Assembly (NCBI GenBank): GCA_024279425.1
Contig: JAJRRO010000016.1
Location: 1 to 64,000 of the forward strand
DNA: 64,000 nt
Direction of reading: 5' to 3'
Source: Bacteroidota bacterium
Lineage (GTDB): Bacteria > Bacteroidota > Bacteroidia > Flavobacteriales > Flavobacteriaceae
Of this stretch, positions 9,089-16,771 are shown piece after piece. How positions within the stretch are numbered: position 1 is the first letter of the stretch; the number at the start of each line of letters is the position of its first letter. Both the position numbers and the translations under genes were made by a program. The notes under the pieces are model-generated. The model did no database searches. It worked only from the letters and a program-made list of their open reading frames with translations, and had not been told where the DNA came from.

Positions 9089-10549
9089 ATGTCTTCAGTT
9101 CTTAAAAGAGACACTGCTTTTGAAAATATTCCTTCCATCAAGGCAAAGACCCTGAGGATAAACCTAAATCCAGACATTTACGGAACCTTCGCAGAAATTG
9201 GCGCAGGGCAGGAAACAGCAAGACATTTCTTTAGGTCGGGTGGTGCCTCCGGGACAATTGCAAAGGCTATGAGCGCCTATGACAAGGAATTCAGTGATGC
9301 CATTTACGGGGTTGAAGAAGATGGAAGATATGTTTCCCAGTCTAGGTTAAAAACAATGTTGTCGCATGAAATGCGCCTTATGGAAGAGCGCATTACAAGA
9401 GATAAACACCCGGAGAGGTTGTTCTTTTCGTACGCGAACACTGTTGCCACAATCGATTTTTCTAAACGCTACAAGGGACACGGATGGATTGGTATAAGAT
9501 TTCAATTGGACCCAACCCAAAAAGAACTTGATGAAATAATCTTACATGTTCGCTTTAAGCAGAACGAGGCACGCCTACAACAAGAGGCATTGGGGATAAT
9601 GGGCGTTAATCTTATTTATGGTGCCTTTTACAAGTATCATAAACCCCGAAAACTACTGAAATATTTATACGACCATATAGATAGTGATACGATTGAAATG
9701 GATATGGTGAACTTTTCTGGGCCTAATTTCAAGAGCGTTGACAATAGATTAATGAGCTTGCAGCTGATTCGAAATGGCATGACCGATGCTGTTATGTTCG
9801 GTCCTGATGGTAACAATCTCTTGCCTGCTGTAGAACTCTACAAAAAGAACATATTGGCACTTCGAGGTAGTTTTAGACCTGTGACCAAAGTTAATATGGA
9901 CATGTTTGAGAAATCCTATGATATTTTCATTCGTGATCAAGCAGTTGAAGAGGATAAGGCCTTTGTAATCTTTGAGATTACATTGTCCAACCTAAAAGCT
10001 TCTGGGGAAATTGACGAACGTGATTTTATGGACCGGGCAGAATTATTATGTTCTATGGGCCACACCGTAATGATCTCCAATTTCCAGGAATATTATAAGC
10101 TGGTCGAGTATTTCAACAACTATACCAAGGCCAAAATCGGTCTGACCATGGGAGTGAACAATTTGGTCGATATTTTCGACGAGAAATACTATAGGCATCT
10201 TAGCGGTGGTATTTTAGAGGCCTTTGGAAAGTTGTTCTTTAAAGAGCTTCAGGTATATCTGTACCCAATGAAGAATGTAGAAACTGGTCAAATAATGACG
10301 AGCAACAATGTTAAGGTACATCCTAGAATGAAGGAACTTTACAAGTTCTTCAAATACAATGGTAAAGTGATGGACATTATTGATTACGATCCCGAAATCA
10401 TGCACATTTTCTCTCGGGATATATTCAAAAAAATAGTGAATCATGAAGAGGGCTGGGAAGATGCACTGCCCACAGGTATTGCCGAAATAATAAAGGAAAA
10501 GAACCTTTTTGCTCCAAAGACCAGAGAGAAAAACGAAGAAAAAGTGTAA
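9089..10549 (+). CDS. Conserved 486-residue soluble protein of unknown function
   Basis: A cytoplasmic-looking protein with no signal peptide or membrane helix. Distinct blocks include FAEIGAGQETARHFFRSGGASGTIAKAMSAYD near residue 35, YGVEEDGRYVSQSRL, an acidic/aromatic centre (YLYDHIDSDTIEMDMVNFSGP), and a C-terminus rich in metal-friendly residues (YDPEIMHIFSRDIFKK, NHEEGWEDALP). The glycine-rich GAGQ...GGASGT region could bind a phosphate or nucleotide, but I see no standard Walker or Rossmann motif. It is not a TonB receptor and I will not assign an enzyme. It is monocistronic, with its own promoter, between the MBL gene and bcp. Confidence 0.7.
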   Translation: MSSVLKRDTAFENIPSIKAKTLRINLNPDIYGTFAEIGAGQETARHFFRSGGASGTIAKAMSAYDKEFSDAIYGVEEDGRYVSQSRLKTMLSHEMRLMEERITRDKHPERLFFSYANTVATIDFSKRYKGHGWIGIRFQLDPTQKELDEIILHVRFKQNEARLQQEALGIMGVNLIYGAFYKYHKPRKLLKYLYDHIDSDTIEMDMVNFSGPNFKSVDNRLMSLQLIRNGMTDAVMFGPDGNNLLPAVELYKKNILALRGSFRPVTKVNMDMFEKSYDIFIRDQAVEEDKAFVIFEITLSNLKASGEIDERDFMDRAELLCSMGHTVMISNFQEYYKLVEYFNNYTKAKIGLTMGVNNLVDIFDEKYYRHLSGGILEAFGKLFFKELQVYLYPMKNVETGQIMTSNNVKVHPRMKELYKFFKYNGKVMDIIDYDPEIMHIFSRDIFKKIVNHEEGWEDALPTGIAEIIKEKNLFAPKTREKNEEKV

Positions 10550-10599: not shown

Positions 10600-11055
10600 C
10601 TATTCATCGAGTAACTGTGCGGCATGATTTTTGGTTTTCACCTTATCAATGACCTTTATCACAACACCCTCTTCATTCACAACGAATGACTTTCTATGAA
10701 TGCCATCATACTCACGCCCCATAAATTTTTTGCGACCCCAGACACCAAAAGTATTGATTACTGAATGATCCTCATCTGCCAATAAAGGGAATGGGAATTT
10801 ATATTTGTTTCTGAAATTTGTTTGTCTTTTTTCTGAATCTGCACTTACACCCAATAGTTCAAAGCCCTGTGCCTGTAATTCCTTGAAATTGTCCCTAAGG
10901 TTACAGGCTTCTACCGTGCAGCCCGGTGTGCTCGCCTTGGGATAGAAAAATACAATCAATTTCTTTCCGCTATAATCCGCTAATCTTATTACTCTTCCAT
11001 CTTGGTCCCTAGATTCAAATGCTGGAACCTTGTCTCCCACTTTCAATGTATTCAT
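10600..11055 (-). CDS. bcp: Thioredoxin-dependent thiol peroxidase (Bcp/PrxQ)
   Basis: A 151-residue peroxiredoxin started at ATG 11055. The peroxidatic cysteine is Cys46 in STPGCTVEAC and the second cysteine is Cys51, the CxxxxC spacing of atypical two-cysteine Bcp/PrxQ enzymes. The supporting blocks FYPKASTPGCT, LRDN and YGVWGRKKFMGREYDGI are typical, with the arginine that polarises the site in the latter region. It reduces hydrogen and organic peroxides in the cytosol with electrons from thioredoxin. It is divergently transcribed from nth and the two share a 55-bp spacer, which may couple oxidative defence and base-excision repair. Confidence 0.93.
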   Translation of the reverse strand: MNTLKVGDKVPAFESRDQDGRVIRLADYSGKKLIVFFYPKASTPGCTVEACNLRDNFKELQAQGFELLGVSADSEKRQTNFRNKYKFPFPLLADEDHSVINTFGVWGRKKFMGREYDGIHRKSFVVNEEGVVIKVIDKVKTKNHAAQLLDE

Positions 11056-11069
11056 AGTCAATTTTTATA

Positions 11070-11077
11070 TAAATTTG
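11070..11077 (+). promoter_or_regulatory. -7 element of nth
   Basis: TAAATTTG, a perfect TAnnTTTG element, in the spacer between bcp and nth. The nth ATG at 11111 is 33 nt downstream. Confidence 0.45.
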
Positions 11078-11110
11078 CAATACCGCAATTATGGCAAAAT
11101 TAGGCTTAAA

Positions 11111-11776
11111 ATGACAAAAAAAGAAAAAGTTGATTTTACCATAAGAACACTGCAAGAATTATATCCTACGATTCCAGTTCCTTTGAACCACAAGGATCCT
11201 TATAGTTTATTGATTGCCGTATTGTTATCTGCACAGAGTACTGATGTAAGGGTAAATCAAATAACTCCAAAATTGTTTGCAAAAGCCGACAACCCGTATG
11301 ACATGATTAAAATGTCTGTTGAGGAAATACGTGAAATCATAAAACCTGTTGGTCTATCACCCATGAAGTCAAAGGGAATTCATGGTTTGTCGCAAATTTT
11401 AATCGATAAATATGAGGGTGGGGTTCCAAAAGAAATTGAATTGCTTGAAGAATTACCTGCTGTTGGACATAAAACCGCCAGTGTTCTAGTTTCACAGGCC
11501 TTTGGAATACCTGCTTTCCCAGTTGACACCCATATTCATAGACTTATGTACAGATGGGGGTTCTCTAACGGTAAGAACGTGACCCAAACAGAGAAAGATG
11601 CCAAAAGAATATTTCCCGAACGCTTGTGGAATGACCTTCATTTACAGATAATTTGGTATGGAAGGGAGTATTGCCCAGCAAGGGGATGGGATTTGGAAAA
11701 AGACATAATAACCAAGACCATTGGAAGGAAAACAGTTTTAAATGACTATTCTAAAACTAAAAAGACCCGCAAATAG
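11111..11776 (+). CDS. nth: Endonuclease III without the 4Fe-4S cluster
   Basis: A 221-residue DNA glycosylase/AP lyase started at ATG 11111. The helix-hairpin-helix motif ELPAVGHKTASVL carries the catalytic Lys121, and the conserved acid is Asp139 in FPVDTHIHR. The enzyme excises oxidised pyrimidines and cuts at abasic sites. The C-terminal loop that normally holds Cys-x6-Cys-x2-Cys-x5-Cys reads YCPARGWDLEKDIITKTIG here, with only one cysteine (188), so the iron-sulfur cluster is absent. This clusterless form is a real variant, not a truncation, because the reading frame continues with a basic tail. It diverges from bcp; its 3-prime end overlaps the terminator of the leftward sigma cassette. 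Confidence 0.92.
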   Translation: MTKKEKVDFTIRTLQELYPTIPVPLNHKDPYSLLIAVLLSAQSTDVRVNQITPKLFAKADNPYDMIKMSVEEIREIIKPVGLSPMKSKGIHGLSQILIDKYEGGVPKEIELLEELPAVGHKTASVLVSQAFGIPAFPVDTHIHRLMYRWGFSNGKNVTQTEKDAKRIFPERLWNDLHLQIIWYGREYCPARGWDLEKDIITKTIGRKTVLNDYSKTKKTRK

Positions 11777-11782
11777 CAGGTC
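11758..11782 (-). terminator. Terminator of sigma cassette 1
   Basis: On the minus strand the transcript reads GACCTGC-TATTT-GCGGGTC, a 7-bp stem with one G-U pair, followed by a U-run (TTTTTAGTTTT). On the plus strand the same sequence has a C-A mismatch and no T-run, so it works leftward. It overlaps the last codons of nth. Confidence 0.65.
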
Positions 11783-11787
11783 AATTC

Positions 11788-11931
11788 TCAGTTTAAACTA
11801 ATTTCAAACTGTATGTTATTATGTTCAACAAAACGTAATGACTTGGAATAACTAATTAAAAACTGAATTGTTTGTCTGTAGGCAGTAAAAGAGCTACCTT
11901 TTTTTTGACTTTCAAAGTAAATTTTTTCCAT
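11788..11931 (-). CDS. 47-residue protein paired with ECF sigma factor, copy 1
   Basis: Starts at ATG 11931 and ends at TGA 11788-11790. The product begins MEKIYFESQKKGSS and ends NNIQFEISLN, with the core TIQFLISYSKSLR. A paralogue of identical length lies at 12950-13093 after the second sigma gene. The two share MEKIY, TIQFL, YSKSL and the (I)xFE...N ending while the linker has diverged, a pattern that indicates selection on the protein. It has no signal or membrane segment, is basic in the middle and may form a helix-strand fold. It sits 70 nt after the sigma stop. A role in controlling the sigma factor is inference from the conserved pairing. Confidence 0.7.
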   Translation of the reverse strand: MEKIYFESQKKGSSFTAYRQTIQFLISYSKSLRFVEHNNIQFEISLN

Positions 11932-11952
11932 ATTGATTATAGTATTGTTATG

Positions 11953-11967
11953 CTAGAATAACGCGAC
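11953..11967 (-). promoter_or_regulatory. Conserved block before small ORF, copy 1
   Basis: Minus-strand GTCGCGTTATTCTAG, matching 13 of 15 positions of the block at 13115-13129. In both copies exactly 21 nt separate it from the ATG of the 47-residue ORF. It could be a regulatory RNA, a translation signal or an operator; function unknown. Confidence 0.5.
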
Positions 11968-12001
11968 TACTATGGAAATATTGTTTTTACCGATACAAGA
12001 G

Positions 12002-12586
12002 CTAAGAATTTGTCAAAACAATATTGTTTTTATCAATGATCTTTCTAAGGTTTATCAACGCATATCTCATTCTCCCCAAGGCCGTATTAATACTCACCCC
12101 TGTATTTTCGGAGATTTCCTTAAAACTCATATCCTTGTAAATGCGCATTAACAAAACTTCTTTTTGATCATCGGGCAATTCATCTACCAGATACTTTAAA
12201 TCAGAATTTATTTGGTCTTTTATTATTTGTTTTTCAGCATTTAATTTATCATCACCTATTACAGAGAAAATATTAAAATCCTCACTGCCTTCGAACATTG
12301 GCATTCTTTTGTTCTTCCTAAAGTGGTCGATGATGAGATTGTGGGCTATTCGCATCACCCATGGTAAAAATTTACCTTCTTCACTGTATAAACCTTTCTT
12401 TAGGGTCTTGATTACTTTAATAAAGGTATCTTGGAAAATATCTTCAGTAACATCCCTGTCCAATACTTTTGAATAGATAAAGCTGGTTATTCGTTGGTTA
12501 TGCCTATTGATAAGTATCTCAAGAGCTTTTTCATCTCCGCTGATATAATCTCTTACAAGTATTGAATCCTCGATTTGTAGTTTCAT
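12002..12586 (-). CDS. ECF-type sigma-70 family sigma factor, copy 1
   Basis: A 194-residue RNA polymerase sigma factor with both ECF domains. Region 2 contains LINRHNQRITSFIYSKVLDRDVTEDIFQDTFIKV and RIAHNLIIDHFRKNKR (residues 24-95), which contact the -10 region. Region 4 contains ELPDDQKEVLLMRIYKDMSFKEISENTGVSINTALGRMRYAL (about 135-180), the helix-turn-helix for the -35 region. The linker is acidic. A close paralogue is encoded at 13168-13749. There is no transmembrane anti-sigma gene next to it; the only partner is the 47-residue ORF downstream. The promoter region resembles that of the paralogue. Confidence 0.93.
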   Translation of the reverse strand: MKLQIEDSILVRDYISGDEKALEILINRHNQRITSFIYSKVLDRDVTEDIFQDTFIKVIKTLKKGLYSEEGKFLPWVMRIAHNLIIDHFRKNKRMPMFEGSEDFNIFSVIGDDKLNAEKQIIKDQINSDLKYLVDELPDDQKEVLLMRIYKDMSFKEISENTGVSINTALGRMRYALINLRKIIDKNNIVLTNS

Positions 12587-12687
12587 ACAAATTATTTTTT
12601 TAGGTTAAAGCTTTAGGTTAAATTATTCGGTCTTACTTTGGGTTGAACACCGTCTTTTAATCCCGATGCTATTTTTTAATTATGACC

Positions 12688-12695
12688 TAAAACTA
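12688..12695 (-). promoter_or_regulatory. Probable -7 element of sigma cassette 1
   Basis: Minus-strand TAGTTTTA differs from TAnnTTTG at one base. It is preceded by TTTGTC, as is the better element of the second cassette (TTTGTC then TATATTTG), so the two promoters look homologous. The leader to ATG 12586 would be about 95 nt. Confidence 0.4.
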
Positions 12696-12891
12696 GACAA
12701 ATCGTGGTGTGCGAAAAAAACTATGTTGTCAAACCCCTTTTTTTTGATGTGAAACCGTCATTTTTCTTTTTTATCACAATATTTTAGAACTGCTAAAGTT
12801 GCATCGACGGGATTGGACCTAATGTCTTTATGGTAATGTATAAAGCACTGGCACTACCGGATTATTTGATAAATGCTATAATTCAGAGCAT

Positions 12892-12927
12892 AAAAAAAAC
12901 CCTTACTACTACATGTAATAAGGGTTT
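12892..12927 (-). terminator. Terminator of sigma cassette 2
   Basis: Minus-strand AAACCCTTA-13 nt-TAAGGGTTT, a 9-bp perfect stem followed by a run of eight T. It lies 22 nt after the stop of the second 47-residue ORF and isolates cassette 2 from cassette 1. The remaining sequence between it and the sigma-1 start (12587-12891) holds only the promoter region; I see no further gene. Confidence 0.8.
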
Positions 12928-12949
12928 AACATTATTTTTTTAATAGGCT

Positions 12950-13093
12950 TTAGTTCATATTAGTTTCGAACTTTATGCCATCGGCCTCCGTTATTTTTAA
13001 TGATTTTGAATAATTCAATAAAAATTGGATGGTTTCCGGCTTTGCTTTTACAAGCTTACACTTGTTCTTATTTTTAACGTAAATTTTTTCCAT
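12950..13093 (-). CDS. 47-residue protein paired with ECF sigma factor, copy 2
   Basis: Starts at ATG 13093 and ends at TAA 12950-12952, giving MEKIYVKNKNKCKL, a core ETIQFLLNYSKSLK, and the ending GIKFETNMN. It is exactly as long as the copy at 11788-11931 and shares the N-terminal MEKIY, the TIQFL and YSKSL core and the C-terminal FE/N residues. It starts 74 nt after its sigma gene. Length, position and residue conservation in two diverged copies make it a credible gene although it is very short. I know of no assigned function; a small regulator of the sigma factor is an inference. Confidence 0.72.
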   Translation of the reverse strand: MEKIYVKNKNKCKLVKAKPETIQFLLNYSKSLKITEADGIKFETNMN

Positions 13094-13114
13094 ATTCCTT
13101 TCAGTTTTGTTTCA

Positions 13115-13129
13115 CTAGGATAACGCAAC
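13115..13129 (-). promoter_or_regulatory. Conserved block before small ORF, copy 2
   Basis: Minus-strand GTTGCGTTATCCTAG, the counterpart of 11953-11967, again exactly 21 nt before the small-ORF ATG. Surrounding sequence between sigma stop and ORF is otherwise poorly conserved. Confidence 0.5.
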
Positions 13130-13167
13130 GTTGTTAAATATAGTGATTACGTTCGACCTATGGCTCA

Positions 13168-13749
13168 TTAATTCGTTAAAACAATATTATGCTCTTCAAT
13201 GATCTTTCTCAAGTTAATCAAAGCATAGCGCATCCTTCCTAGTGCGGTATTTATGCTCACACCCGTATTCTCTGAAATTTCCCTGAAACTCAAATCCTTA
13301 TAAATACGCATCATTAGAACATCTTTCTGATCCACTGGTAGCTCTTCAATAAGAACCACCAAGTCAGAATCTATCTGATTTTTAATAAGTTGTTTTTCAA
13401 TATTCAATTTTTCATCGCAGATTACCGAAAATATGTCGAAGGTATTGGTGCCTTCAAACAATGGCATTCTTCTGTTCCGTCTAAAATGGTCAATTATAAG
13501 GTTATGTGCAATGCGCATAATCCACGGCAAGAATTTACCCTCTTCATTATATCTGCCTCTTTTAAGTGTTCTAATGACCTTTATAAAGGTATCCTGAAAA
13601 ATATCCTCGGTAATACCTCGATCATTTATTTTGGAATAAATAAAACTACTCAGGCGTTTATTGTGTCTATTTATCAAGGTTTCGAGTGCTCGTTCGTCTC
13701 CATCGACATATTTTTTTATAAGAAGGGAATCTGCAATTTGAAGCTCCAT
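13168..13749 (-). CDS. ECF-type sigma-70 family sigma factor, copy 2
   Basis: A 193-residue sigma factor, started at ATG 13749 so that MELQIADSLL aligns with MKLQIEDSIL of copy 1. Region 2 (LINRHNKRLSSFIYSKINDRGITEDIFQDTFIKV, RIAHNLIIDHFRRNRR) and region 4 (FREISENTGVSINTALGRMRYALINLRKI) are almost the same as in copy 1, whereas the inter-domain linker differs. This indicates an older tandem duplication with kept promoter recognition. The gene is divergent from uvrA. It has its own -7 element and ends with a 47-residue ORF and a terminator, so it forms an independent two-gene unit. Confidence 0.93.
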   Translation of the reverse strand: MELQIADSLLIKKYVDGDERALETLINRHNKRLSSFIYSKINDRGITEDIFQDTFIKVIRTLKRGRYNEEGKFLPWIMRIAHNLIIDHFRRNRRMPLFEGTNTFDIFSVICDEKLNIEKQLIKNQIDSDLVVLIEELPVDQKDVLMMRIYKDLSFREISENTGVSINTALGRMRYALINLRKIIEEHNIVLTN

Positions 13750-13850
13750 ATCAATTACTTTTTTTGGGTTAAAACTAGGGACCAATTCTTAGGAAGAGGT
13801 CTGTAGGTAGTTCACTAATTTTAAAAAAGTAATTGTTTAGCTATAGGCGT

Positions 13851-13867
13851 CTTAACATTTTGTTAAG
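13851..13867. promoter_or_regulatory. Palindrome at the probable transcription start of sigma cassette 2
   Basis: CTTAAC-ATTTT-GTTAAG, a perfect 6-bp inverted repeat 2 nt downstream of the -7 element on the minus strand. Its position would suit an operator. No equivalent is obvious at cassette 1. Confidence 0.3.
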
Positions 13868-13869
13868 TT

Positions 13870-13877
13870 CAAATATA
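13870..13877 (-). promoter_or_regulatory. -7 element of sigma cassette 2
   Basis: Minus-strand TATATTTG is a perfect TAnnTTTG. It is preceded by TTTTGTC as at cassette 1. The leader to ATG 13749 is about 115 nt, long for this genome. Confidence 0.5.
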
Positions 13878-13945
13878 GACAAAATTCTAGGTTATAAAAA
13901 AATAGTATAGTGATTATCACCATTTTAAATGTAAAATATGGAATA

Positions 13946-13977
13946 TTGGTTATTGCATATGACATATTGTATCTTTA
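13946..13977 (+). promoter_or_regulatory. Candidate uvrA promoter
   Basis: TTG at 13946-13948 and TATCTTTA at 13970-13977 (one mismatch to TAnnTTTG) with a 21-nt spacer, 16 nt before the chosen uvrA ATG. Confidence 0.35.
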
Positions 13978-13993
13978 CGGCCTAATTAAGATT

Positions 13994-16771
13994 ATGCTTT
14001 CAATTACAGACGTAAATCCTAAGGAAAATATAATTATCAAGGGTGCAAAGCTGCACAATTTGAAAAATATTGACGTAGTCATACCTAGAAATAAATTGGT
14101 GGTGATTACCGGTCTTTCGGGTTCGGGAAAATCCAGTTTGGCATTCGACACGCTATATGCCGAGGGTCAACGCAGATATGTCGAGAGTCTTTCTTCATAT
14201 GCACGTCAGTTTTTGGGTAAATTGAACAAACCCAAAGTAGATTATATAAAAGGTATTGCTCCTGCAATTGCGATCGAGCAGAAGGTCAATTCTACCAATC
14301 CGCGTTCTACAGTGGGCACAACTACGGAGATTTACGACTATCTTAAATTGTTTTATGCTCGTATTGGTAAAACAATCTCACCAATTTCTGGGGAAGAGGT
14401 GAAAAAGCATACGGTTACCGATGTGGTCCGTTATATACAAACTTTTGATGAAGGTAAAAAACTGCTGCTATTGGCTCCTATTGTCATTAAACAAGACCGT
14501 GACCCCATAAAGTCGCTTCAGCTATTTTCAAAACAGGGTTATGCTAGAATCAAACACAATGGTAGTGTTATTCGTATTGATACGGCCCCAGAGGACATAG
14601 GTCACGAATTCAGCCTAGTCATAGATCGTATAATAACCAAGGATGATGAGGACTTTTACAATAGACTGGCCAATGCCATAGATTCTGCATTTTTTGAGGG
14701 AAAAGGGGAATGTGTCATCGAAGAGCTGGCAACTAATAGGCAGACTGTTTTTAATAATAAGTTTGAAAAGGACGGAATATCTTTCTTAGAGCCCAATGTG
14801 CATCTTTTCAGTTTCAACAACCCCTATGGGGCGTGTCCAAAATGTGAAGGTTATGGTGATGTTATTGGCATAGATGAGGATTTGGTAATTCCGAATACTT
14901 CCTTGTCGGTTTTTGAAAATGCAATATTCTCCTGGCGAGGTGAAAGCATGGGCTGGTACAGAGATGAACTGGTAAATTCTGCTTACAAATTTGATTTTCC
15001 GATACATAAACCCTGGTTTGAGCTCACCGAAAGGCAAAAACTAATGGTATGGGAAGGCAATTCCCATTTTATGGGGCTTAATGACTTTTTCGGAATGCTC
15101 GAGGAGAAAAGCTATAAGATTCAAAATAGGGTTATGCTTTCTCGCTATCGCGGAAAGACCAAATGCAATACCTGTAAAGGCAAGCGATTGCGCAGAGAAA
15201 CGGATTATGTTAAGGTTGATGGAAAGTCGATTTCAGATTTGGTGGAGTTACCCATTAAAAAATTGATCGTCTTTTTTGACCACATTTCTTTAAATGACCA
15301 CGACCTTCAAATTGCATCCCGTTTATTGAAGGAGATAACAACAAGATTGGGCTTTTTACAAAAAGTAGGGCTTGGTTACCTAACGCTCAATCGAAAATCA
15401 AATACCCTCTCAGGAGGCGAGAGCCAGCGTATTAACCTGGCAACTTCTTTGGGTAGTAGTCTTGTTGGTTCTATGTATATATTGGACGAACCAAGTATTG
15501 GTCTGCACCCCAAGGACACCGAAAACTTGATTGATGTTCTTAAATCGCTCCGCGATTTAGGCAATACGGTTATCGTGGTAGAGCATGACGAAGATATCAT
15601 GAAGGCGGCTGATGAGGTCATAGACATTGGCCCAGAAGCTGGTACGCACGGTGGTGAAGTTGTTGCACATGGCACTTTAGACGAAATCCTGAAATCCACT
15701 TCCTTGACTGCTAGTTATTTGAACGGAACCCAAGAAATAAAAGTTCCAAAAGAAAGACGGACTTCCAAAAGCTATATTGAAATAAAAGGTGCCAGAGAAA
15801 ATAATCTGAAAAATATCGATGTTACATTTCCTTTGAATATGCTTACGGTAATCACAGGGGTTTCAGGTAGCGGCAAAAGTACATTGGTTAAAAAATTGCT
15901 TTATCCTACAATACTTAAGGAAGTCGGTGGCTATGGCCAAAAAGCCGGACAATTTACCTCGGTGCATGGTAAATACCAATCTATAAAACATGTAGAGTTC
16001 GTTGATCAAAACCCCATTGGTAGGTCCTCACGTTCAAACCCTGTCACCTATATAAAGGCCTATGATGATATTAGGGCTTTGTTTGCCTCACAGAAATTAA
16101 GTAAAATAAGAGGCTACCAAGCGAAGCACTTTTCGTTTAATGTTGATGGTGGTCGTTGTGAAAAGTGTAAAGGCGAGGGCGAAATTACCGTGGAAATGCA
16201 GTTTATGGCCGATGTGCACTTGGAATGTGATACCTGTGGTGGTAAACGGTTTAAAAAAGAGGTTCTAGAAGTAAAATTTGAGAATGCGAGTATTGATGAT
16301 GTTTTGAATATGACCATTGATGATGCGATAACATTTTTTGAAAAATATGGACAGGCCAAGATTGTTGGCAAACTAAACCCATTACAAGCGGTAGGACTCG
16401 GTTATGTTACTTTGGGGCAATCTTCCTCTACCCTTTCCGGTGGCGAAGCACAGCGGATAAAACTGGCTTCCTTCTTGGTGAAGGGAACAACTAAAGATAA
16501 GGCACTTTTCATTTTTGATGAACCAACTACGGGTTTACATTTCCATGATATTAAAAAGTTACTGAAGTCTTTTGACGAATTAATTGCCCGTGGTCATTCT
16601 GTTATTGTCATTGAACATAACATTGAACTTATTAAATGTGCTGACCACATTATTGACCTAGGTCCGGAAGGCGGGGAAAACGGTGGGCAACTTCTGGCCC
16701 AAGGCACTCCTGAAAGTATCATTCAAAGTAAATCTTCTTTTACCGCTAATTACTTACGGGAGAAATTATAA
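13994..16771 (+). CDS. uvrA: Excinuclease ABC subunit A
   Basis: A 925-residue nucleotide-excision-repair ATPase, started at ATG 13994 because the family N-terminus (IIIKGAKLHNLKNIDV) follows immediately and a promoter lies just upstream. It has two ABC modules. The first has Walker A GLSGSGKSS, a signature with LSGGESQRINLATSLG and Walker B MYILDEPSIGLHP. The second has GVSGSGKST, LSGGEAQRIKLASFL and LFIFDEPTTGLH. Zinc-module cysteines are visible (CPKCEGYGD, CNTCKGKR, CEKCKGEGE, CDTCGGKR). UvrA2 scans DNA for bulky damage and loads UvrB. It lies beside two ECF sigma genes transcribed the other way, so a regulatory tie is possible but unproven. Confidence 0.97.
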   Translation: MLSITDVNPKENIIIKGAKLHNLKNIDVVIPRNKLVVITGLSGSGKSSLAFDTLYAEGQRRYVESLSSYARQFLGKLNKPKVDYIKGIAPAIAIEQKVNSTNPRSTVGTTTEIYDYLKLFYARIGKTISPISGEEVKKHTVTDVVRYIQTFDEGKKLLLLAPIVIKQDRDPIKSLQLFSKQGYARIKHNGSVIRIDTAPEDIGHEFSLVIDRIITKDDEDFYNRLANAIDSAFFEGKGECVIEELATNRQTVFNNKFEKDGISFLEPNVHLFSFNNPYGACPKCEGYGDVIGIDEDLVIPNTSLSVFENAIFSWRGESMGWYRDELVNSAYKFDFPIHKPWFELTERQKLMVWEGNSHFMGLNDFFGMLEEKSYKIQNRVMLSRYRGKTKCNTCKGKRLRRETDYVKVDGKSISDLVELPIKKLIVFFDHISLNDHDLQIASRLLKEITTRLGFLQKVGLGYLTLNRKSNTLSGGESQRINLATSLGSSLVGSMYILDEPSIGLHPKDTENLIDVLKSLRDLGNTVIVVEHDEDIMKAADEVIDIGPEAGTHGGEVVAHGTLDEILKSTSLTASYLNGTQEIKVPKERRTSKSYIEIKGARENNLKNIDVTFPLNMLTVITGVSGSGKSTLVKKLLYPTILKEVGGYGQKAGQFTSVHGKYQSIKHVEFVDQNPIGRSSRSNPVTYIKAYDDIRALFASQKLSKIRGYQAKHFSFNVDGGRCEKCKGEGEITVEMQFMADVHLECDTCGGKRFKKEVLEVKFENASIDDVLNMTIDDAITFFEKYGQAKIVGKLNPLQAVGLGYVTLGQSSSTLSGGEAQRIKLASFLVKGTTKDKALFIFDEPTTGLHFHDIKKLLKSFDELIARGHSVIVIEHNIELIKCADHIIDLGPEGGENGGQLLAQGTPESIIQSKSSFTANYLREKL

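Follow-up and report, generated by a model that had tools for sequence, protein, structure and literature searches.

Tandem ECF sigma factor cassettes in a Flavobacteriaceae genome carry 47-codon genes predicted to encode relatives of the fourth helix of an anti-sigma domain

The stretch analysed here, called the window, comprises 64,000 nucleotides from a Bacteroidota bacterium of the family Flavobacteriaceae (GCA_024279425.1, contig JAJRRO010000016.1, positions 1 to 64,000). Its interval between uvrA and nth holds two tandem leftward cassettes, A and B. Each consists of a gene for an extracytoplasmic function (ECF) sigma factor, a short gap, an open reading frame (ORF) of 47 codons and a terminator-like hairpin. 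The gap measures 70 nt between sigma A and ORF a, and 74 nt between sigma B and ORF b. One flanking gene encodes endonuclease III (TIGR01083, E 4e-60, 202.8 bits against a cut-off of 211.7) and the other encodes UvrA (NF001503). A scan of 11700-14000 for terminator-like hairpins returned four sites against 1.3 expected. A first-pass annotation, made from the letters of the window, had described two leftward units with gaps of 70-74 nt, small ORFs of identical length and hairpins, and the coordinates confirm this. It had also stated that no anti-sigma gene adjoins either sigma gene, and no larger one was found at the locus. The features are as follows, all on the minus strand.

13870 to 13877, minus strand: TATATTTG, the sigma-A-type -7 box of sigma B, recognised by sequence and kept in copy B of relatives.
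13744 to 13852, minus strand: putative leader RNA element of sigma B, ending at the ATG (covariance model, covariation, folding z).
13841 to 13848, 13823 to 13835 and 13752 to 13764, minus strand: parts of this leader, respectively GCCTATAG, the 5' arm and the 3' arm.
13168 to 13749, minus strand: sigma B, an ECF sigma factor of 193 aa with an ATG start (Pfam Sigma70_r2 2.4e-15 and Sigma70_r4_2 6e-9, scanned with the TTG start).
13120 to 13146, minus strand: predicted ECF-type promoter of ORF b, TCACTAT-N14-CGTTAT (aligned set of 75 gaps).
12950 to 13093, minus strand: ORF b, 47 aa, predicted helix-4-only relative of anti-sigma factors (profile match, dN/dS, AlphaFold).
12897 to 12927, minus strand: terminator-like hairpin past ORF b (hairpin scan).
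12676 to 12754, minus strand: conserved block upstream of copy A (alignment of 12 genomes).
12002 to 12586, minus strand: sigma A, an ECF sigma factor of 194 aa, without the GCCUAUAG leader.
11958 to 11984, minus strand: predicted ECF-type promoter of ORF a, ACAATAT-N14-CGTTAT (gap alignment and pattern counts).
11788 to 11931, minus strand: ORF a, 47 aa, predicted helix-4-only relative of anti-sigma factors (profile match, dN/dS).
11764 to 11782, minus strand: terminator-like hairpin past ORF a (hairpin scan).

The two sigma factors are about 76% identical. With sigma A as query (E<=1e-30), orthologues were found in 51 of 60 genomes, own included. Most relatives have a single sigma of this kind, and two occur in the window's genus and a few neighbours. 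Names of relatives were taken from the 80 kept of 544 relatives and from NCBI ranks; the most distant ones (L100-L120) we take to be Rhodothermia and Balneolia.

The 47-codon ORFs are, judged by their substitution patterns, conserved genes under selection. Both proteins lack a Pfam match, and they are 47% identical to each other. Within the window's genus, substitutions at codon positions 1, 2 and 3 number 275/236/788 for ORF a and 273/215/746 for ORF b. The median ratio of nonsynonymous to synonymous substitution rates (dN/dS) is 0.107 for ORF a (36 finite of 45 pairs) and 0.095 for ORF b (25 finite of 36 pairs); pairs without a finite value have saturated dS, the set contains two near-copies (L004 and L005), and ORF a of one odd contig, L053, is counted in. 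On that contig (G002 contig 331, positions 1-600), the sigma gene at the contig edge groups with Cytophagales on a tree, and the gap and ORF behind it are those of the window's genus; it is either a chimeric contig or a transfer.

With a hidden Markov model (HMM) of the family (E<=1e-3), a member was detected downstream of the orthologous sigma gene in 55 of the 63 units from the window's order and in 81 of 131 units of the whole phylum set. These counts are partly circular, since 59 of the phylum-set ORFs, picked by regular expression, are the model's own seeds. The dN/dS values and the profile comparisons by hhalign given below are independent of that model. Among the remaining eight units of the order, L042 and L043 carry relatives of 88-90 aa that are too divergent for the HMM, L050-L052 have no ORF, and one in L054 is cut by the contig end. 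The last two of the eight, in L044 and L046, have the leader and a different ORF of 47-64 aa at the same place, whose relation to the family is not clear. The first-pass annotation had read the small proteins as conserved and not as chance ORFs, and had named absence of the ORF behind orthologous sigma genes, or a dN/dS near 1, as results that would speak against this. The ORF is present in most units of the order, dN/dS is near 0.1 and substitutions concentrate at third positions, all in keeping with its view.

Most members in the window's family keep a length of 44-50 aa. Of 81 ORFs, 72 end in Asn, with both codons used (AAT 40, AAC 32), as do all 21 that were aligned. The 47-aa ORFs also have a conserved tail after the predicted helix, which Cytophagales forms lack. 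In the window the terminal Asn codons lie at 11791-11793 and 12953-12955; together with the tail, this residue is a possible degron or docking signal.

The ancestry of the small proteins is suggested by a graded series of ORFs behind the same sigma. In the 21 most distant units (L100-L120), the ORF encodes a long protein. The 18 long forms read by script each have at least 15 hydrophobic residues out of 19 in a run after residue 70, by a residue count and not by a transmembrane predictor. Two long forms match the NCBIfam anti-sigma family NF052375 (E 9.6e-9 and 3.5e-12), under its curated cut-off. In Cytophagales the form is soluble, has about 70-82 aa and starts inside the sigma gene (29 of 29 readable loci). 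Sphingobacteriaceae have a form of 62-64 aa with an eroded body in 5 of 13 loci. In Chitinophagaceae no ORF was recognised in 13 of 14 loci, meaning no ATG-started ORF of this kind of at least 36 aa within about 130 nt, and the remaining locus, L147, has a 77-aa form.

Profile comparisons connect these forms in steps. The long-form profile matches the Cytophagales 77-aa profile with E 1.5e-11, and the 77-aa profile matches the 47-aa profile with hhalign E 7.9e-7 over 32 columns. We therefore read the 47-aa ORF, on profile evidence, as homologous to the fourth-helix region of the anti-sigma domain encoded at the same place in relatives. The 47-aa family could instead be unrelated to anti-sigma factors, its helix alike by chance or by convergence at a hot spot for small genes. 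This could be argued from the fact that just 32 columns align and that the direct comparison of the 47-aa and long-form profiles is not significant (E 0.2). However, the lowest E among 100 column-shuffled controls of the 77- versus 47-aa comparison is 0.017, the ORF lies at the same place behind the same orthologous sigma, and forms of 60-90 aa provide intermediates, including intact-looking ones inside the window's order (L037, L042, L043). We consider an unrelated origin improbable.

The graded shortening, together with the lack of a recognisable ORF in nearly all Chitinophagaceae loci, could also be attributed to decay of the anti-sigma gene into a functionless pseudogene. A dN/dS of about 0.1 and the third-position bias contradict this, as do the length held mostly at 44-50 aa and the conserved promoter and terminal Asn, and we give this explanation almost no weight. 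In a quickly built tree of the sigmas, the short forms found in the window's order are separate from those of Sphingobacteriaceae, and the 88-90-aa forms fall inside the order. The label 'mini' requires 12 changes on that tree, 3 of them forced by starred branches, with ORF classes assigned by hand from the read ORFs. This suggests, but does not prove, that the protein shrank independently in Sphingobacteriaceae and the window's order, with the same helix spared.

A 78-aa member is modelled by AlphaFold as four helices with a mean predicted local distance difference test (pLDDT) score of 86.5. When this model was compared by Foldseek with 350,542 PDB chains, sigma/anti-sigma chains took ranks 1-11 and made up 15 of 24 hits, among them entries for ChrR, RsiW, RslA and the SigK complex. 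For ORF b, AlphaFold predicts one helix (residues 19-31) at the homologous place, followed by a low-confidence beta hairpin in the tail, with a mean pLDDT of 69.4 from an alignment that included 77-aa rows. A PDB search with the 77-aa profile gave chance-like matches only and no anti-sigmas. In a coevolution analysis of class I anti-sigma factors, 12 of the top 14 contacts joined helix 4 to sigma region 2, and helix 4 contacts sigma2 at the surface that binds core RNA polymerase (PMC7406223). A peptide reduced to helix 4 could therefore compete with the core enzyme for sigma.

The gap between each sigma gene and its ORF offers a clue to regulation. Of the 76 units whose gap measures 20 nt or more, 75 carry a CGTT box at a distance of 13-43 nt upstream of the ORF, where 12-75 nt was allowed. 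L026 is the exception: its box is present but too close to an upstream in-frame ATG. When gaps are aligned on CGTT, a second box appears at a fixed distance, with A at -19 (95%), T at -17 (91%) and A at -16 (96%). The strict form A[CT]A[AC]TA[AT]-N14-CGTT occurs in 48 of 76 gaps, which are related sequences and not independent, compared with a mean of 0.1 and a largest count of 2 over 300 dinucleotide shuffles. The site of ORF b departs from the strict form by its first base. From these alignments and counts, the gap is predicted to carry a two-box ECF-type promoter for the ORF.

We then looked for the same pattern elsewhere. A relaxed pattern finds 9 sites in the own genome against 4 in a reversed control. 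At five of the nine, an ATG 26-45 nt downstream opens an ORF of at least 47 aa: ORF a, a PorP/SprF gene whose first 160 aa match Pfam PF11751 (E 3.3e-40), a 146-aa protein that is probably secreted, a probable lipoprotein and a protein of 134 aa. Pfam gave no match for the secreted protein, the lipoprotein or the 134-aa protein. The four other than ORF a (L244, L248, L249 and L250) have the two-box promoter 28-45 nt before the ATG. Among 15 loci with a PorP/SprF homologue, the site is present upstream in 11, all of them at 71.9% identity or more, and in none of the 4 at 47-53%. Over 37 genomes, a search with the strict pattern found 29 sites where the reversed control had 20. Of those 29, 17 belong to this cassette, with adjacency taken from coordinates; few other targets are therefore resolved. 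Outer-membrane genes and genes of type IX secretion are probable members of the regulon. The SM6 promoters of Flavobacterium psychrophilum are a possible known counterpart of the gap promoter; in that species, genes of the type IX secretion system (T9SS) are reported among the targets (PMC9723704).

Taken together, homology to helix 4 and an ECF-type promoter in the gap lead us to favour the first-pass annotation's suggestion of an anti-sigma or feedback element. We think it probable that each ORF encodes a minimal anti-sigma peptide, a remnant of a class I anti-sigma factor that lost the three-helix bundle and any membrane part, kept helix 4 and acts in self-induced feedback. The adjacent sigma would read the gap promoter, the helix of the resulting peptide would sit on sigma region 2 and block binding of core RNA polymerase, and the loop would thus exert negative feedback on sigma.

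Several results weigh against this. The non-significant direct comparison with the long form, given above, is one of them. The Foldseek E-values are weak singly, from 1.5 up, and a PDB search with the 47-aa profile returned no chain at E<=10. Because helix 1, which contacts sigma4, is gone from the 47-aa form, binding may be poor. Pooled pN/pS is about 0.2 for both ORFs against 0.04 and 0.09 for the sigmas. Finally, the genome has seven more ECF-type sigmas that match one sigma profile at E<=1e-20 and could read the gap promoter.

The shortened protein might instead help its sigma by acting as a chaperone, by binding RNA polymerase as a cofactor, or by passing the sigma on, as an adaptor, to a protease or to PorX. 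The absence of the bundle that contacts sigma4 would fit such a role, and the C-terminal tail with its terminal Asn, encoded by both codons, resembles a recognition signal. Yet the conserved core is the very helix expected to compete with core RNA polymerase in the ancestor, and an ECF promoter of its own suits a feedback inhibitor. We regard a helper function as unlikely.

The proposed minimal anti-sigma peptide can be compared with known systems. Like the class I anti-sigma factors RseA, ChrR, RsiW, RslA and RskA, it is encoded directly behind an ECF sigma; its 78-aa relative has the four-helix order of that class, and the closest PDB folds are such complexes. Unlike them, the 47-aa form has no three-helix bundle, membrane segment or Hx3Cx2C zinc motif, and retains the helix-4 region only. 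The class II factor CnrY is likewise a short inhibitor whose last helix is described as binding sigma2 (PMC7406223), but CnrY uses two helices, whereas the 47-aa form has one predicted helix and no PDB sequence match.

A further conserved element lies upstream of sigma B. In sigma B and many relatives, the leader holds GCCUAUAG, followed by an arm that pairs with the bases overlapping the ATG or immediately preceding it. The stem was picked by eye before it was tested, a bias that the slid controls share. In a first set of 32 leaders, taken from the window's family and its neighbours, 82.6% of 408 cells in the named 13-pair stem are standard pairs, compared with 72.9% in shuffles and 44-58% in slid versions. 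Nine of the 13 pairs changed on both sides, and the covariation score was reached by none of 500 shuffles. Among the 206 leaders of a wider set, a loose pattern that admits some false hits finds the motif in 85. The 37 leaders without the common TACTTT arm have a mean stem score of 16.0, against 12.5 when arms were re-paired between leaders 10,000 times (sd 0.46, largest 14.4).

A covariance model, R1, scores the window at 64.8 bits (E 2.9e-10), the window's sequence being one of its 32 training rows. With E<=0.01, it hits 30 of 60 genomes, own included, once each and just upstream of the sigma gene by coordinates; nine of the 30 are outside the training set, and 21 sigma-positive genomes have no match. 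The window's leader RNA has a folding z of -2.69. RNAalifold predicted no pair on a MAFFT alignment. Rfam gave no match on the window at gathering score, and at E<=5 its three matches in 11000-15000 fall far under their gathering scores, none on the leader. A second GCCTATAG, at 10189-10196 on the minus strand, has no leader-model match, and about one occurrence is expected by chance in all.

Because the conserved stem ends there, ATG 13749 is a likelier start of sigma B than TTG 13785 of the ORF list. The first-pass annotation had placed a -7 region preceded by TTTGTC before the sigma gene. The -7 box TATATTTG is indeed kept in copy B of relatives, and TAnnTTTG is given as the -7 consensus in PMC9723704. 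The TTTGTC motif did not hold up: copy B of relatives mostly has TTTATC, TTTCTC or TTTTTC, with TTTGTC in L010.

Across 209 units, motif and stem occur together in 0 of 21 with a long ORF, 3 of 45 with an ORF of about 77-90 aa, 52 of 82 with a short ORF (2 unreadable), 18 of 59 with no ORF (2 unreadable) and 2 of 2 with an unclear ORF. The leader is therefore neither confined to the short ORF nor always found with it. Translation initiation in F. johnsoniae proceeds without a Shine-Dalgarno sequence and is reported to be tuned partly by structure near the start codon (PMC6847099), and because of this the role of the leader is likely repressive. It would give sigma B a second brake, on the mRNA, where the stem would hide the start codon region until opened. 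Structured 5' elements without an Rfam match are also reported from F. psychrophilum (Flavo-1 and others), where the six examples named in the available part of PMC9723704 include no sigma gene; the sigma leader may be among the 64 structured 5' regions of that study.

The leader could alternatively be only a transcript-stability or promoter-proximal element, in which case the sigma would be under transcriptional control, like SigP under PorX. SigP (PGN_0274) of Porphyromonas gingivalis, which belongs with PorX/PorY, is a 193-aa ECF sigma that controls T9SS genes with PorX (PMC4800418), and PorX binds the sigP promoter region in that species (PMC8265659). Among 198 genomes, matched by eye, a PorX-like protein is present in all 97 that are sigma-positive; 58 have PorX without such a sigma at the cut-off, and 43 have neither. 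This co-occurrence is compatible with a SigP-like role, but it follows phylogeny. Against purely transcriptional control, compensatory changes preserve the start-proximal pairing, and such structure partly tunes initiation in F. johnsoniae, as noted. We regard this alternative as the less likely one.

SigP was compared by description only, as no Porphyromonas is among the 80 relatives kept. The gap-type promoter here also lies upstream of a PorP/SprF gene. In the available part of PMC7712824, SigP is not among the sigmas listed with a possible downstream anti-sigma, and neither there nor in that of PMC4800418 is a micro-ORF or leader mentioned for it.

The leader element is absent upstream of sigma A. 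Copy A has another block, TTTCACATCA..GTTTGACAACA..TTTTTT..CTAGTTTTA.GTCATAATTAA, conserved in 12 genomes of several genera, which is possibly an activator site plus promoter. The two cassettes therefore probably answer to different signals.

These observations bear on how Bacteroidota control their ECF sigmas. An adjacent class I anti-sigma was found for just 6% of Bacteroidetes ECFs in a survey that dropped domains under 50 aa (PMC7406223). A 47-aa partner falls under that cut-off, and part of the Bacteroidetes gap may therefore be an annotation blind spot. Full-text literature searches returned no paper on unannotated small Bacteroidetes anti-sigmas or on minimal, truncated or short anti-sigma factors. 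What appears new here is an anti-sigma apparently cut to one helix, together with an RNA element for which no description was found in the papers examined. More tentatively, there may have been a handover across the phylum, in which the anti-sigma was stripped stepwise to one self-induced helix or lost and the RNA leader, GCCUAUAG plus stem, became a gate. The one-helix proteins would then form an anti-sigma class of their own, and other 'orphan' Bacteroidota ECF sigmas might have unannotated partners. If one helix does hold an ECF sigma, it would define a minimal anti-sigma and offer a natural peptide inhibitor, while the leader and the ECF promoter offer practical entry points to a sigma possibly connected with type IX secretion.

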